Assembly (NCBI GenBank): GCA_028709785.1
Contig: JAQUTK010000016.1
Coordinates: 1-64,000, forward strand
Direction: 5' to 3'
DNA: 64,000 bases
Origin: Bacteroidales bacterium
GTDB lineage: Bacteria > Bacteroidota > Bacteroidia > Bacteroidales > JAQUTK01
Shown here in pieces: positions 20,878-56,454 of the stretch; position 1 is the first letter of the stretch, and each line of letters begins with the position of its first letter. Made by a program: the position numbers and the translations under genes. Below the pieces are notes generated by a model. The model did no database searches, was not told where the DNA came from, and saw only the letters and a program-made list of their open reading frames with translations.

Positions 20878-22605
20878 ATGAAGAAGTTTTTATCACTCAT
20901 TTTGGTATTCTGCACCTTAAACGTCCTGGCATGGGAGCGCGAAACCGTGTGGCCCAAGGGCAAGATGCCTGATAGCCAAACCCATCAGATTGCTGCCATG
21001 ACCGATGAGTCCGGGCAGAAGGACTTTAAAGCCGACAAGCATCGTGTGGCCTATCTGGAATGGTTTGATGCTCCTGCCAAGGAGGCAAGCAATGGTTCCT
21101 GTATGATTCTTATCAGCGGTGGCAGTTACGAGACTTGCTGCGACGTGGGCCTCATCAAGTTGTGGCGCGAGGAACTTACCCGTCAGGGTATTCAGTGTGT
21201 CAATTTCGTATATCGTACTCCCCGTCCTGTTGGTCTCCCCATCTATCAGACGGCTTGGGAAGATGGTCAGCGTGCCATACGTATGGTGCGCAGCGAAGCA
21301 AAGAAGCGCGGATTCGACCCTGAGAAGATTGGCGTTATCAGCATGTCGGCAGGTTCGCATCTGGGTCTGTTACTGGCAACCAGCTCACAAACTCCTGCCT
21401 ACTCACCCATAGACAAACTGGATTCTATACCTTGCCATATCAATTGGGCCGTTGTCAATGCGCCTGCCTACGTCACCACCGATGGTGAAACCGGCATTCC
21501 CGCCATTCGTCAGGGGTATGGTCTGGACGTGAAACTGAGCAATGTCTTCAAGTTTGACAAGAAGACTTGTCCGATGAGTCTCCACCATGGTGGCTACGAC
21601 CCCTACTCCCCCAATGGTTCCACGCTGGTTTACCGCCAACTCCGTCGCATGCATGTGCCTGCTGAGTTACATCTTTATCCAGACAAAGGGCATGGAGCTT
21701 TTGGTCTGGAACGTGGCATCGAGTTCATGCGCCAAATGGGTTATCTGGGTAAGGTGGCTCCCGAAGAGGAACTGACGGCCCGATTCCCTGAAGGTCGTGT
21801 GGAAACCGACAAGAAGACTCAGGACATCTGGCCGGAGGGAAAGATGCCGGATGCTCAGGATAAACAATGCAAACCCTATCTGGAGTGGTATATTCCCAAA
21901 AATTTGAAGACAAGAGCCATACAGATCATCTGGAGTGGAGGTGCCTATATGGGCAACAATCCCGATGATTTCGAGGTAGCTCCTGCTCGTCGTTACCTCA
22001 ATGAGCGTGGCATGGCGGTGGTTACCGTCAAGTATCGCACACCCCGTCCCGAGGGACTGGCGAAGCACACCACTGCTTGGCAGGATATCCAACGTGCCAT
22101 CCGTATCGTACGCAGTCAGGCTGCCAACAATGGTCTCGATCCCGATCGCATCGGTATTATGGGTTCTTCGGCTGGCGGTCACCTAACCCTGATGGGTGTA
22201 ACTTCATCCATGCATCAGTCATACCTACCCATCGACGATATCGACAAAGTCTCTTGCAACGTGCAATGGGGTATCGGCATCTATCCTGCCTATGCCCTGA
22301 CCGATGGTGTCGATGGTTACAACTCCCAGGGTGGAAACGAGGATGGAAACGTTCTGGTGCCGGAGTTCTCCTTTGACCTGAAGACAGCGCCGATGCTCTT
22401 TATCCACGGCGATGCCGACGGCTATGCCAGTATGGCTTCGGTCAAGACCTGGGAGCAGATGCGCGCTATGGGCATCCAGAGCGAACTGCACACGCTGGCT
22501 CTGCGCGAACACTGTTTCCAGCGCACGGCCTCTCCGGGCACGGGAAGTTATACTTTCCTTGATCGCATATGGGAGTTTCTAAGTTCTAAGAAGTTTGCCA
22601 ACTAA
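20878..22605 (+). CDS. Secreted tandem alpha/beta-hydrolase (two esterase domains)
   Basis: 575 residues with a signal peptide (about 1-18). Two homologous halves each begin with a WPxGKMPD motif (near 24 and near 319) and contain YRTPRP, a nucleophile motif and a C-terminal Asp and His. In the second half the nucleophile lies in GSSAGGHL and the acid and base in HGDADGY and REHCFQ. In the first half the nucleophile motif is SMSAGSHL, lacking the first Gly of GxSxG, with HHGGYD and DKGHGAF. These resemble Bacteroidetes acetyl or feruloyl esterases that trim side groups from plant glycans. Codon use is GC-richer than the neighbours, suggesting transfer. A hairpin 120 bases downstream may end transcription. 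Confidence 0.8.
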   Translation: MKKFLSLILVFCTLNVLAWERETVWPKGKMPDSQTHQIAAMTDESGQKDFKADKHRVAYLEWFDAPAKEASNGSCMILISGGSYETCCDVGLIKLWREELTRQGIQCVNFVYRTPRPVGLPIYQTAWEDGQRAIRMVRSEAKKRGFDPEKIGVISMSAGSHLGLLLATSSQTPAYSPIDKLDSIPCHINWAVVNAPAYVTTDGETGIPAIRQGYGLDVKLSNVFKFDKKTCPMSLHHGGYDPYSPNGSTLVYRQLRRMHVPAELHLYPDKGHGAFGLERGIEFMRQMGYLGKVAPEEELTARFPEGRVETDKKTQDIWPEGKMPDAQDKQCKPYLEWYIPKNLKTRAIQIIWSGGAYMGNNPDDFEVAPARRYLNERGMAVVTVKYRTPRPEGLAKHTTAWQDIQRAIRIVRSQAANNGLDPDRIGIMGSSAGGHLTLMGVTSSMHQSYLPIDDIDKVSCNVQWGIGIYPAYALTDGVDGYNSQGGNEDGNVLVPEFSFDLKTAPMLFIHGDADGYASMASVKTWEQMRAMGIQSELHTLALREHCFQRTASPGTGSYTFLDRIWEFLSSKKFAN

Positions 22606-22861: not shown

Positions 22862-23005
22862 AGATAAAACGCAGCATCAAGGATGCATTCTTCATCCTGA
22901 ACCGCAAAACGATTATCCTGCACTGCAAAACGATTATCCTGCACTGCAAAATAATTATTCTGAACCGCAGAATAAGATATGAATCCGTATCGCTGCGTTT
23001 TATCT
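22862..23005. repeat. Four 21-bp tandem repeats bracketed by 14-bp inverted repeats
   Basis: AGATAAAACGCAGC at 22862-22875 is matched by its reverse complement at 22992-23005. Between them lie four consecutive 21-bp copies (22889-22909, 22910-22930, 22931-22951, 22952-22972). The middle two are identical, and the outer two share the ATCCTG or ATTCTG and CGCAAAA-like ends. Inverted repeats around direct repeats are typical of a non-autonomous mobile element or a recombination/protein-binding array. Confidence 0.6.
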
Positions 23006-23074
23006 GAGTGATGAATATTCTAATGTGAAAGGAACAATCCCTTTTCATTTGCTTTCATACAAACATAAATTCCC

Positions 23075-23082
23075 TACCTTTG
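23075..23082 (+). promoter_or_regulatory. -7 promoter element for the alpha-galactosidase
   Basis: TACCTTTG with a TTTG about 23 bases further upstream, 44 bases before the ATG. Confidence 0.55.
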
Positions 23083-23126: not shown

Positions 23127-24749
23127 ATGAAAAAACAATCTTTATTAGGTTTGGCAGTCTCACTCATCACTTTTTGTGGTGGCCCAATGATGGAGACTTC
23201 CGCACAAGTGACAGATCTCTCACAGTACATTCTTACTCCAACTGCGCCTGAAACACCTCGCATCAACGGAGCAAAAGTATTCGGTGTGCGTCCCGGTTCA
23301 AAGTTTCTATTCACAATTCCGGCGACCGGAAAACGTCCGATGACTTTCTCTGCTGAAGGGTTACCTAAAGGGCTTAAGCTGGATAGCAAAACCGGTCAGA
23401 TTACCGGAACTGTAAAAAAAGCCGGTACGTTTGCTGTCAAACTCACAGCTACCAATGATCTGGGCAGCAATGAGCGTAACTTCCGCATCGTTGTCGGAGA
23501 AAAAATCGCCCTCACTCCTCCGATGGGATGGAACAGTTGGAACTGCTGGGGTAACAGTGTGAGCCAGGAAAAGGTACTGAGTTCGGCAAGAGCAATGGTC
23601 AACAAAGGCCTCATCAACTACGGCTGGACATTTATCAACATTGATGATGGATGGCAAGGAATACGGGGTGGAAAATACAAGGGTATCCAGTCCAATCAGA
23701 AGTTTCCGGACATGAAGGCTATGGCGGATGAGATTCACGGTATGGGTCTCAAGATCGGTATCTATTCGGGACCCTGGGTAAATACGTATGCGGGTCATAT
23801 TGGCAGTCTCGCCGATGATGAAGACGGCACCTATGAATGGATAAGAAAAGGGAAACACAACGAGAATTACATGATCAATGACCCTGAAAAGAAGATTAGC
23901 CGTAGCACCTTCCGCTACCATGGTAAATACTCATTTGTCAAGAATGACGCGAAACAATGGGGTGACTGGGGCATTGACTACCTCAAATACGACTGGAATC
24001 CGAACGACTTTTACTATACCAAAGAGATGGCTGACGCACTCCGCTCGCTCGACAGAGATGTAGTCTATAGTCTATCCAACAGTGCACCTTATGGTGACGC
24101 TCCGGTTTGGTCAGAATACACAAACTGTTATCGTACCACCGGTGACATCCGCGATACATGGGAAAGTATGAGCAGTATCGGATTTGCACAAGACAAATGG
24201 CTCTCTTTCAAGAGACCGGGCCATTGGCCTGATCCTGACATGCTCGTAGTAGGTATGGTAGGTTGGGGACCGAATCTTCATAACACTAAACTTACTGCCG
24301 ACGAACAATATACTCACATTAGTCTCTGGTCAATACTGGCTGCCCCACTCCTGATCGGTTGCGACATGGCTCAACTCGATGACTTTACCATCAGTCTCCT
24401 GTGTAATAATGAAGTGATTGATGTCAATCAGGATCCGCTGGGTATTCAGGCATATCCGTACTACCAGGACAACACATACGTTACCTATGTCAAACATCTT
24501 GAAGACGGTTCGATGGCGGTTGGTATGTTCAATAAGACCAACGAGCCTAAAGCGATTGGCTTCAAACCGAAGAGTCTGGGATTCCGTGGCAAACAGACTA
24601 TCCGCGACTTGTGGAGACAGAAAGATCTGATAGAGATAGAGGCAGACAAACTGTTTGAAACAACTGTGGCTCCTCACGGAGTTGTATTGGTTAAGATCTA
24701 TCCCGGTATCTCTCATGAAAAAGTAGTGAAAGAGCCTGTAAGACTATAA
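23127..24749 (+). CDS. Secreted GH27 alpha-galactosidase with N-terminal Ig-like domain
   Basis: 540 residues. A signal peptide ends near residue 27 (TSAQ). An Ig-like putative domain (about 30-125; GLPKGLKLDSKTGQITGT) precedes the GH27 barrel, which opens with LTPPMGWNSWNCWG. The catalytic nucleophile is the Asp of YLKYDWN (about 289), and the acid/base is the Asp of TTGDI (about 340). Both are intact. A C-terminal beta-sandwich follows. It removes terminal alpha-galactosyl units from galactomannan or raffinose-type sugars. There is no lipobox, so it is probably periplasmic. It has its own promoter and a terminator after it, so it is monocistronic. Confidence 0.92.
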   Translation: MKKQSLLGLAVSLITFCGGPMMETSAQVTDLSQYILTPTAPETPRINGAKVFGVRPGSKFLFTIPATGKRPMTFSAEGLPKGLKLDSKTGQITGTVKKAGTFAVKLTATNDLGSNERNFRIVVGEKIALTPPMGWNSWNCWGNSVSQEKVLSSARAMVNKGLINYGWTFINIDDGWQGIRGGKYKGIQSNQKFPDMKAMADEIHGMGLKIGIYSGPWVNTYAGHIGSLADDEDGTYEWIRKGKHNENYMINDPEKKISRSTFRYHGKYSFVKNDAKQWGDWGIDYLKYDWNPNDFYYTKEMADALRSLDRDVVYSLSNSAPYGDAPVWSEYTNCYRTTGDIRDTWESMSSIGFAQDKWLSFKRPGHWPDPDMLVVGMVGWGPNLHNTKLTADEQYTHISLWSILAAPLLIGCDMAQLDDFTISLLCNNEVIDVNQDPLGIQAYPYYQDNTYVTYVKHLEDGSMAVGMFNKTNEPKAIGFKPKSLGFRGKQTIRDLWRQKDLIEIEADKLFETTVAPHGVVLVKIYPGISHEKVVKEPVRL

Positions 24750-52598: not shown

Positions 52599-52653
52599 AA
52601 TAATATAATATTGAATAATATAATATTGAATAGAAGTAATAATATAATATTAA
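52599..52653. repeat. Three AT-rich direct repeats
   Basis: TAATATAATATT-containing copies at 52599-52616, 52617-52631 and 52638-52653, each followed by GAA or AAA. They probably arose by slippage. Confidence 0.5.
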
Positions 52654-52802
52654 AGAAGACGATATAGAAGAAAACAAGAGGCATGCGAGGCATGCGAAAA
52701 AAAGTGTTCGACACTGGCAATTTCTTTTTTTTCAGATTGGCTACGATTTTTGCATAATCCAACAAATCCTCAAGTTTTGCAGTTGATCCGTGATCAGTAA
52801 TC

Positions 52803-52851: not shown

Positions 52852-52926
52852 TGGGCGTTGAGGGATTCGAACCCCCGACCCTCTGCTTGTAAGGCAGATG
52901 CTCTGAACCAGCTGAGCTAAACGCCC
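52852..52926 (-). tRNA. tRNA-Val (TAC), copy 2
   Basis: Cloverleaf with GGGCGTT acceptor, D-stem GCTC region, anticodon loop CTTACAA giving anticodon TAC, and T-loop TTCGAAT. It is identical to the other copy, 113 bases away, and follows it in transcription. CCA is not encoded. Confidence 0.95.
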
Positions 52927-52964
52927 GATTGTCTTTTTTGTCTGGAAGTGTCCGTTCTTTTTTG

Positions 52965-53039
52965 TGGGCGTTGAGGGATTCGAACCCCCGACCCTCTGCT
53001 TGTAAGGCAGATGCTCTGAACCAGCTGAGCTAAACGCCC
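52965..53039 (-). tRNA. tRNA-Val (TAC), copy 1
   Basis: Identical to the other copy, anticodon TAC. It is first in the transcription unit, 26 bases after the promoter -7 box. Confidence 0.95.
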
Positions 53040-54645: not shown

Positions 54646-56454
54646 ATGAGACCAGAAGAGAACAATTGGAATTCTGACGAACAAAAGAACAATGATTCTA
54701 ATCGTGACAGTAGAAACAACCCTAGACCTGAAAGAACGAATGATTACAACAGAGAACGTCCGTCCTATAATTCAGAACGTCCTCGCACAAGTAGCTACAA
54801 CCGCGATGGTGGTAGCAGCCGTCCTTACAATCAGGACAGACCGGCACGCCCGTCCTATAATTCAGAGAGACCGGGAAGGCCTTCCTATAATTCGGAGAGA
54901 TCAGACCGTCCGTCTTACAACTCTGAGAGACCGGCACGCCCTTCTTACAACTCTGAAAGATCGGATCGTCCGTCTTACAATTCAGAGAGACCATCAAGAC
55001 CTTCTTACAATTCTGAGAGATCGGATCGTCCGGCTTACAACTCTGAAAGACCGGCACGTCCTTCCTATAACTCGGAGAGATCGGATCGTCCTTCATACAA
55101 CTCGGACAGGCCTGCACGTCCATCCTACAACTCTGACAGAAGCGGTGGATTCAACCGTAACTTCAATCGCAACGATAATGATAGACCGGCATGGAATGCA
55201 AACAAACCTTCGGGAGACTCAGAGTCTTCAAGAAGACCATACAATCGTCCGGACCAGGAGGGAAGTAACTTTAACAGCTTCAACAACGAGGATCCATCAA
55301 AACCTCGCAGACCACGCTTCCGTGTAGGAGATACTCCACAGGAAGGTAGTGAATACAGTAACTTCTCCCCAAGAAACAACGAAGATCAAAGGGGAGGTGG
55401 TTATCAGGGTCGCCCAAGCTATGGCAATCGCGAAGGTGGATACCAGGGCCGTCCAAGTTATGGCAACCGCGAAGGTGGCAACAGCCGTCCAAGCTATGGC
55501 AACCGCGAAGGTGGTTACCAGGGCCGTCCAAGCTATGGTAATCGTGAAGGTGGCAACAGCCGTCCAAGCTACGGGAACCGCGAAGGTGGTTATCAGGGCC
55601 GTCCAAGCTATGGCAACCGCGAAGGTGGCTATCAGGGTCGTCCGAGCTTTGGCAATCGCGAAGGTGGTTATGATCCAAACGCTAAGTATAGCAAGAAAAA
55701 ACAGTTCGAATTCAAAGAAAAAAATATTGACCCGAATGAACCAATCCGTCTGAACAAATACCTTGCAAACGCCGGACTTTGTTCCAGAAGAGAGGCAGAT
55801 GAGTTTATTCAGGCAGGTGTTGTTTCTGTCAACGGTGCTATCGTTACAGAACTGGGAACCAAAGTGAAACGCGAAGACAAAGTGATGTTTCATGACCAAT
55901 TGGTAAGTCTGGAACATAAGGTCTATGTATTGCTCAACAAACCGAAAGATTGTGTGACAACAACGGATGATCCTCAGGCCAGACTGACCGTAATGCATCT
56001 TGTTCGCAACGCTTGTAACGAGCGCATCTATCCTGTAGGACGCCTCGACCGGAACACAACCGGAGTGTTGCTGCTTACAAACGACGGCGAACTGGCATCA
56101 AAGCTGACTCACCCGAAATTTGTGAAGAAAAAGATCTATCAGGTAACCCTGGATAAACCATTGACGGCAGCTGATATGGAACAGATCAGAGAAGGTATTG
56201 AGCTCGAAGATGGCGAAATTCATGCAGATGAAATCCACTATGTGAAGGATGAGAAGAAGACTGAAGTTGGAATCGAGATTCACTCCGGACGTAACCGCAT
56301 CGTACGACGTATCTTTGAACATCTGGGATATAAAGTATACAAACTGGACCGTGTCTATTTTGCCGGTCTGACGAAGAAGGGAATTCCACGCGGTAAATTC
56401 CGTCATTTAAACGATAGAGAAGTAAACATGTTACTCATGGGTGCTTTTGATTAA
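54646..56454 (+). CDS. RsuA/RluB-type pseudouridine synthase with long repetitive N-terminus
   Basis: 602 residues. Residues 1-350 are disordered and rich in Arg, Ser, Tyr, Gly and Asn. They include ten 10-residue RPSYNSER-like units (67-166) and seven 11-13-residue GGYQGRPSYGNRE-like units (250-342). An S4 RNA-binding domain follows (IRLNKYLANAGLCSRREAD, about 366), then the synthase with GRLDRNTTGVLLLTNDG near 465 and IHSGRNRIVRRIFEHLG near 545. It isomerises a uridine in 23S or 16S rRNA. The long tail probably binds RNA or drives condensation. Such tails occur in Bacteroidales enzymes. Confidence 0.85.
   Translation: MRPEENNWNSDEQKNNDSNRDSRNNPRPERTNDYNRERPSYNSERPRTSSYNRDGGSSRPYNQDRPARPSYNSERPGRPSYNSERSDRPSYNSERPARPSYNSERSDRPSYNSERPSRPSYNSERSDRPAYNSERPARPSYNSERSDRPSYNSDRPARPSYNSDRSGGFNRNFNRNDNDRPAWNANKPSGDSESSRRPYNRPDQEGSNFNSFNNEDPSKPRRPRFRVGDTPQEGSEYSNFSPRNNEDQRGGGYQGRPSYGNREGGYQGRPSYGNREGGNSRPSYGNREGGYQGRPSYGNREGGNSRPSYGNREGGYQGRPSYGNREGGYQGRPSFGNREGGYDPNAKYSKKKQFEFKEKNIDPNEPIRLNKYLANAGLCSRREADEFIQAGVVSVNGAIVTELGTKVKREDKVMFHDQLVSLEHKVYVLLNKPKDCVTTTDDPQARLTVMHLVRNACNERIYPVGRLDRNTTGVLLLTNDGELASKLTHPKFVKKKIYQVTLDKPLTAADMEQIREGIELEDGEIHADEIHYVKDEKKTEVGIEIHSGRNRIVRRIFEHLGYKVYKLDRVYFAGLTKKGIPRGKFRHLNDREVNMLLMGAFD
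54844..55143 (+). repeat. 30-bp coding tandem repeat, ten units
   Basis: Ten 30-bp units encode RPSYNSER plus a variable pair that alternates between PA/PG/PS and SD. DNA copies differ at third positions, so the repeat is kept by selection on protein as well as by duplication. Confidence 0.8.
55393..55671 (+). repeat. Coding tandem repeat, GGYQGRPSYGNRE type
   Basis: Seven units of 33-39 bp encoding GGYQGRPSYGNRE or its shorter form GGNSRPSYGNRE. They are unrelated at unit length to the upstream repeat. Confidence 0.8.

Follow-up and report, generated by a model that had tools for sequence, protein, structure and literature searches.

Upstream of an alpha-galactosidase-like gene of a Bacteroidales bacterium, four tandem 21-bp repeats stand within a bracket of inverted repeats. 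Does this segment serve the gene that it precedes, or is it a copy of something that occurs elsewhere in the genome? The original prediction, made from the 64,000 nucleotides analyzed here (the window), had proposed either a small non-autonomous element or an invertible segment. The stretch proved to be an orphan copy belonging to a family of intergenic elements, each approximately 260 bp long, that is spread over the genome. A further finding went beyond that prediction: the complete copies of the family constitute the upstream region of an HU-family gene.

Architecture of the Window Copy

The predicted array and its inverted bracket were confirmed (Table 1). The four units followed one another without gaps, and the bracket consisted of a perfect 14-bp inverted repeat (AGATAAAACGCAGC) at the outer ends of two arms, which ran on imperfectly inward. 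Tandem Repeats Finder reported the segment 22894–22969 with a period of 21, 3.6 copies and a score of 103. The sequence from 22862 to 23005 matched its own reverse complement at 68%, and its strand was predicted to fold at −29.4 kcal/mol, compared with a mean of −13.4 kcal/mol for shuffles (z = −6.2, none of 200 shuffles being as low).

Table 1. Features of the alpha-galactosidase locus in the window, with examples of two further dispersed repeats
Feature	Position	Strand	Basis or remark
Upstream neighbor, 575-aa esterase-like protein	20878–22605	+	Closest NCBIfam model pectin acetylesterase PaeX, score far below the cut-off
Left arm (GATAAAACGCAGCATCAAGGATGCATT...), conserved among the copies	22862–22893	+	Alignments of 16 and 14 copies; arm score left-type 43, right-type −12
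14-bp perfect inverted repeat, left copy	22862–22875	+	
Four 21-bp units (15-nt near-palindrome and 6-nt spacer)	22894–22977	+	Repeat detection; co-variation of units across the family
Unit 1	22894–22914		Identity to the first unit 100%
Unit 2	22915–22935		Identity to the first unit 90%
Unit 3	22936–22956		Identity to the first unit 81%
Unit 4	22957–22977		Identity to the first unit 71%
Second left-type arm, inverted	22978–23005	−	Arm score left-type 29, right-type −5
14-bp perfect inverted repeat, right copy	22992–23005	−	
Probable promoter of the downstream gene, outside the element	23048–23082	+	TTTG at 23048–23051, TACCTTTG at 23075–23082; read from the sequence
Downstream neighbor, alpha-galactosidase-like protein	23127–24749	+	Named in the original prediction; homologues found in the genome collection
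Second repeat, example upstream of an HU element	C53:193037–193067		Own genome (G000)
Third repeat, example	L139:5791–5931		

In most copies of the family the left and right arms scored as different types, forming a distinct leader and tail. The window copy departed from this arrangement: an inverted left arm stood where the HU-linked copies have their right arm, with its TATCTTTA box and the HU start. This inverted left arm explains the symmetric bracket seen in the original prediction. Arm scoring across the family found a left-type arm at both ends clearly in the window copy only. Two apparent right-right copies fell away, one having been tabulated in reverse orientation and the other being weak on both sides. 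An exchange of arms between inverted copies was considered and dropped, the window copy being the only one that was clearly left-left.

A CRISPR array was ruled out by the architecture, the 21-mers being placed head-to-tail, 71–100% alike and without unique spacers. At the Rfam gathering score the element had no match, and the matches in the window were three tRNAs only. Other tandem repeats were visible in the window. Two long ones, at 54838–55140 (periods of 30, 60 and 120 bp) and 55395–55671 (39, 75 and 114 bp), have periods divisible by three and probably belong to a coding region. Short ones were located at 1029–1054 (12 bp, 2.2 copies) and 52599–52658 (15 bp, 2.3 copies), and a 24-bp period was found near two tRNA genes, which have equal scores and lie at 52852–53039.

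A Family of Dispersed Elements in the Same Genome

A DNA search of the genome to which the window belongs (3.55 Mb in 70 contigs) gave 21 matches to the element at E ≤ 1, the copies being approximately 70% alike. Fourteen copies could be aligned without gaps over 170 columns (36 for the left arm, 84 for the array and 50 for the right side), and the covariance model built from this alignment gave 66 matches. The dyad allows most copies to be matched on either strand, and these matches therefore collapsed to at least 34 places, each with a best E-value of 0.002 or less (150 of 1567 candidates were scored). The element was thus dispersed, as predicted, and not confined to a single copy. Conservation extended beyond the model for approximately 55 bp to the left and 35 bp to the right, which gives the element its length of approximately 260 bp. 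Four units were counted at 30 of the 34 places, five at one and two at one; the remaining two showed the right arm only and no unit.

The copies were intergenic, dispersed and palindromic, as judged with a simple ORF caller and ignoring short ORFs that overlapped them. With the same caller, the genes flanking the 34 places were both forward in 12 cases, convergent in 7, both reverse in 6, divergent in 6 and undefined in 3. The HU-linked copies made up four of the six divergent places, and the orphans displayed no preference for promoter positions in these gene orientations.

Complete Copies Run into an HU-HIG Gene

In five copies an open HU-HIG reading frame began 8 bp past the end of the model, one of these frames being cut by a contig end. 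The complete element is the region directly upstream of this gene and running into it, the order being left arm, four palindromic units, right arm and start codon. The gene belongs to the HU-HIG family (PF18291, “HU domain fused to wHTH, Ig, or Glycine-rich motif”): the two of the five proteins that were tested matched this Pfam model with E-values of 1.1e-17 and 6e-18. The one HU protein tested against TIGR01201 reached 64.2 bits, under the cut-off of 68.6, and no solved structure matched the sequence of the HU protein at E ≤ 0.01. The HU-HIG clade was reportedly defined by Burroughs et al. in Cell Cycle in 2017. To our knowledge, neither a cis-acting array for HU-HIG genes nor a DNA target for HU-family proteins of this type has been described.

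The five HU genes were 84–90% identical in DNA whereas the arrays beside them were only 43–77% identical, which speaks against one strict recognition sequence. Only one TAnnTTT box was shared by all five copies; it was located between the array and the start codon, so that the array of this family would lie upstream of transcription.

At the other 29 places no open HU gene was present. Nineteen of them resembled HU codons 1–9 at the matching offset (p ≤ 0.01 each, by shuffling), and codons 10–19 were also resembled in only three. A tblastn search of 1.4 kb downstream revealed no more HU remains beyond weak matches (best E-value 0.33 outside the five). The window copy was without HU gene remains, its right side being the inverted left arm.

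The surroundings of the HU copies contained several other features. A DDE transposase gene (Pfam DDE_Tnp_1; IS701-like, under the NCBIfam cut-offs) was located at L137:4643–5860 beside one HU copy, and beside another, at L139:7112–7399, lay a fragment that begins similarly. The genes at L139:795–5572, beside the HU element of contig C53, look like part of a BREX-type defense system, an impression gained from a protein start. A second dispersed repeat of approximately 30 bp (CGTCATTGCGGGCTTGACCCGCAATCTC), REP-like in appearance, occurred at more than 25 places of the genome and near several array copies. A third one, approximately 140 bp long, was matched in part or whole at 14 places and preceded four of the five HU elements; by its sequence it resembles the last, C-terminal part of a gene that has been lost, with an A-rich tail behind it.

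The distribution of the family might be that of a MITE-like, non-autonomous unit of approximately 260 bp, moved by a transposase acting in trans and with a right end that happens to hold the HU promoter and start. Dispersal in both orientations, with most copies lacking the gene, agrees with this reading, as do the conserved right edge of the orphans, which ends near HU codon 9, and the absence of the element from the orthologous site of a close relative (see below). So does the IS701/IS4-like transposase gene that follows one HU copy, together with the similar fragment after another. The ends argue in the opposite direction. The ends of the outer-arm consensus did not exceed shuffles in likeness (32 of 200 shuffles being at least as good), so that no terminal inverted repeat was found beyond chance, and the 14-bp repeat of the window copy, formed by left-type arms, was not clear in any other copy. 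No target-site duplication was detected among 22 gene-less copies: at the best offset a 5-mer was shared in 2, compared with 1–3 in 20 permuted pairings, in a weak test with blurred edges and with other lengths scanned without a null. Moreover, copies that are only approximately 70% alike have retained four units and paired stems, and no full-length version with a transposase was seen among the loci inspected. Of the small non-autonomous element first proposed, the dispersal was borne out and the transposon was not; we consider a MITE-like origin unlikely.

Stems and Co-Variation

In the 14-copy alignment, the local stems paired in 79.2% of cells, compared with a mean of 72.0 for shuffles and at most 54.8% for slid registers. 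Cells changed on both sides numbered 53, compared with 29.6 in shuffles that ignore the relatedness of the copies, none of 500 doing as well. The number of pairs with a change on both sides was only weakly above the shuffles (17 versus 14.3, 47 of 500), and that of further pair types was not (32 versus 34.0). Since these two counts are barely or not above the shuffles, the co-variation signal resides in the frequency of joint co-varying states. The unit sequences differed strongly between copies while their palindromic arms co-varied. Units of one copy resembled one another more than expected (likeness 0.670, compared with 0.566 for shuffles and a maximum of 0.602 in 300 shuffles), which indicates that the arrays drift as sets.

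Two other designs were examined and rejected. A single giant hairpin, in which unit 1 pairs with unit 4 and unit 2 with unit 3, was paired in 65.8% of cells, less than the local stems; this was still above the shuffles (62.7, 0 of 500) and the slid registers (approximately 40), and the shared symmetry of the units explains part of it. A coding role was suggested by the unit length, equal to seven codons, and by open frames that cross some arrays, and no common frame was apparent by eye in eight loci.

On the HU-sense strand, the stem mismatches of the family comprised 36 G-U (G-T) and 88 A-C. Among 33 other arrays picked by hand, G-U was not in excess over A-C on the sense strand either (46 versus 61, p = 0.18). 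RNA pairing on this strand is therefore unlikely to be the selected feature.

These counts bear on the possibility of an RNA element, that is, tandem hairpins in the leaders of HU mRNAs that regulate translation or stability, the orphans being decayed leaders. Stem co-variation would be expected of such an element, and in several other HU genes the array does lie downstream of a TAnnTTTG-like box and ahead of the start codon. The missing wobble signature, the TAnnTTT box that separates array and start codon in the present family and the absence of any Rfam family at the gathering score make this explanation quite unlikely.

Arrays Upstream of Other HU-Family Genes in Bacteroidales

When 294 genomes of the order were searched with the family model (9 candidates scored per genome), matches were found only in the own genome and in G001, the one congener examined, which had three divergent matches with 3, 2 and 2 units. 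The DNA search, in which the family was seen in one of 41 genomes, missed the matches in G001. Close relatives of the HU protein were rare, with matches at E ≤ 1e-15 in four genomes, counting the own one, out of 118.

The upstream DNA of 96 HU-family matches was collected (54 of 65, 40 of 58, and 2 from the close-relative search), those left out being mostly weak or near contig ends. Arrays were scored by banded self-alignment at periods of 18–26 in the 460 bp around each start, with a threshold score of 22. Excluding the five genes of the own family, tandem arrays preceded 33 of 91 HU-family genes, compared with 2 of 91 control genes (Fisher p 7.6e-10, an optimistic value since paralogues are not independent). 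The controls had an upstream gap of at least 100 bp and came from the own genome and from G059, G030, G041, G029 and G063, the two named strains given below not being included; five of the 96 original controls were removed because they proved to be HU genes or a copy of the family. Of the two controls that reached the threshold, one was itself a gene-less copy of an HU array in G030, upstream of a 6-phosphogluconate dehydrogenase-like gene. Arrays of the same design and of unrelated sequence were thus found ahead of roughly one in three of the other HU-family genes surveyed in Bacteroidales, and the remaining 58 of the 91 had no array at the threshold.

Among the 29 arrays with a score of at least 25, the best gapless period was 22 in 20 cases, 23 in 6 and 21 in 3. 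Twelve of them were palindromic at p ≤ 0.05 (column permutation) and 17 were not significantly so. The sequences were unrelated from gene to gene, as illustrated by the cores GAACTACGTAGTTC, TCACTCGAGTGA and CCACCTAGGTGG. The named strains with arrays were Bacteroides stercorirosoris DSM 26884 (33 HU matches) and Phocaeicola sartorii JCM 17136 (15 HU matches); 33 TIGR01201 matches at E ≤ 1e-5 were present in one Bacteroides genome. Judged by eye, arrays were more often associated with long HU proteins that carry an additional C-terminal part than with the short canonical type, exceptions occurring in both directions, and in several genes other than those of the own family the array appeared to follow a TAnnTTTG-like box, which would place it in the leader RNA. 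Orphan copies had spread elsewhere as well: one HU array of G030 occurred at 19 places, two of which adjoined a listed HU gene, and one of B. stercorirosoris at two further places. Some HU genes of G030 (L204, L207, L219) seemed by eye to carry two arrays in a row, whose units differ in sequence.

An intrinsic structural repeat, either a cruciform or a terminator-like REP/BIME, would require no dedicated protein, and its closeness to HU genes would be historical. The strong fold, the presence of orphans in all gene orientations, convergent ones included, and the other REP-like repeats in the same intergenic regions point that way. Arrays of unrelated sequence are nevertheless tied to HU-family genes in several genomes, which a passive repeat would not explain, and we regard this reading as improbable.

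The Alpha-Galactosidase Site

The consensus of Bacteroidota promoters is TTTG / TAnnTTTG. The window copy ends 42 bp ahead of the TTTG box in the probable promoter of the alpha-galactosidase gene, a promoter that the original prediction had correctly placed just outside the element. A close relative, the MAG STD2_256 (L022), which probably belongs to the species of the congener G001, has an alpha-galactosidase 92% identical to that of the window, and the esterase/alpha-galactosidase neighborhood is common to both species. Its intergenic region is 435 bp long and lacks the element, compared with 307 bp in the window; the flanks align at 82.8 and 83.5%, and a −7 box (TATCTTTG) occupies the corresponding place. 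The anticipated absence from the same site in a relative was thus observed, although this is not a clean empty site, the intergenic DNA itself having changed. Since the gene and its −7 box are present there without the element, the latter is dispensable at the L022 alpha-galactosidase. Judging from these sequences, the alpha-galactosidase gene probably does not depend on the window copy for its expression. An invertible or phase-variable switch for this gene, which the inverted arms close to a promoter had brought to mind, is extremely improbable and was rejected on architecture, because the promoter lies outside the arms, the neighborhood is kept in both species, the left-left bracket is exceptional in the family and the relative has the gene and the box without the element.

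By eye, a stretch resembling the third repeat was seen at L022:3728–3916, upstream of the alpha-galactosidase, where the window has its array. An unrelated array of four units also accompanies an HU gene of the L022 genome (L324).

A Proposed Model of HU-Family Binding Platforms

We propose that the arrays are duplex-DNA binding platforms of HU-family proteins and that the gene-less copies disperse in the manner of REP elements, a reading that we favor on balance. Each array would be a platform for an HU-family protein, most simply the product of the adjoining gene. The array period is near two helical turns, so that successive dyads would face the same side of the helix, and HU dimers on these successive palindromes could from there control the adjoining gene. 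We infer such binding because the proteins bind DNA, the dyads share one face and the stem mismatches lack a G-U bias. The gene-less copies, including that of the window, may be dispersed leftovers or extra binding sites with a REP-like scatter. Several observations weigh against the model, namely the divergence of the arrays beside similar HU genes, the leader-RNA position of several arrays, the high proportion of HU genes without an array, the arrays that are not significantly palindromic and the lack of a promoter preference among orphans, with 7 of the 34 places being between convergent genes.

Comparison with Known Systems

A literature search that covered mainly openly accessible papers returned no paper tying HU-family genes to tandem palindromic arrays. 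In autoregulatory operator arrays, several in-phase palindromes immediately precede the gene that encodes a DNA-binding protein. The HU arrays differ from these in being unrelated in sequence from gene to gene and in having many gene-less copies elsewhere in the genome. In logic, the nearest known system is that of the REP, BIME and REPIN sequences with their RAYT proteins: short palindromic intergenic repeats, lineage-specific and dispersed, with a dedicated protein gene beside few copies. The present family is likewise palindromic, dispersed and intergenic, with such a gene beside few copies. Unlike RAYT, its protein is an HU-family DNA-binding protein and not a tyrosine transposase, and its units come in arrays of usually four.

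In looks, the BrickBuilt MITE of Porphyromonas gingivalis (Klein et al. 2015, PMC4596501) is the nearest known system. The accessible parts of that paper describe 19 dispersed intergenic copies in one genome, with 23-nt repeats whose number varies widely and terminal repeats that almost match those of IS5-family elements; one of the 19 loci adjoins a PF00216 protein, and those parts give no other link to HU. As in the present family, which is also from Bacteroidales, a central array of short tandem repeats lies between a differing leader and tail, and some BrickBuilt copies lack one end (PMC4596501). The present family is distinguished by 21-nt units, four in number in 30 of the 34 copies, which are palindromic and co-varying, by its tie to an HU-HIG gene and by the lack of detected terminal repeats.

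Significance

It is conceivable, if rather speculative, that HU-HIG proteins and arrays form a REP–RAYT-like partnership in which each protein founds and recognizes a lineage-specific array family of its own and contributes to the spread of that family through intergenic DNA. If so, Bacteroidales would possess many parallel, mutually insulated array–protein sets for local chromosome architecture. HU-family proteins of the HU-HIG kind are numerous in gut Bacteroidales, and the arrays are a direct candidate for their DNA target. In front of HU-family genes, a cis architecture is conserved while its sequence changes freely, and a class of puzzling intergenic repeats may be explained as orphaned copies of HU arrays.
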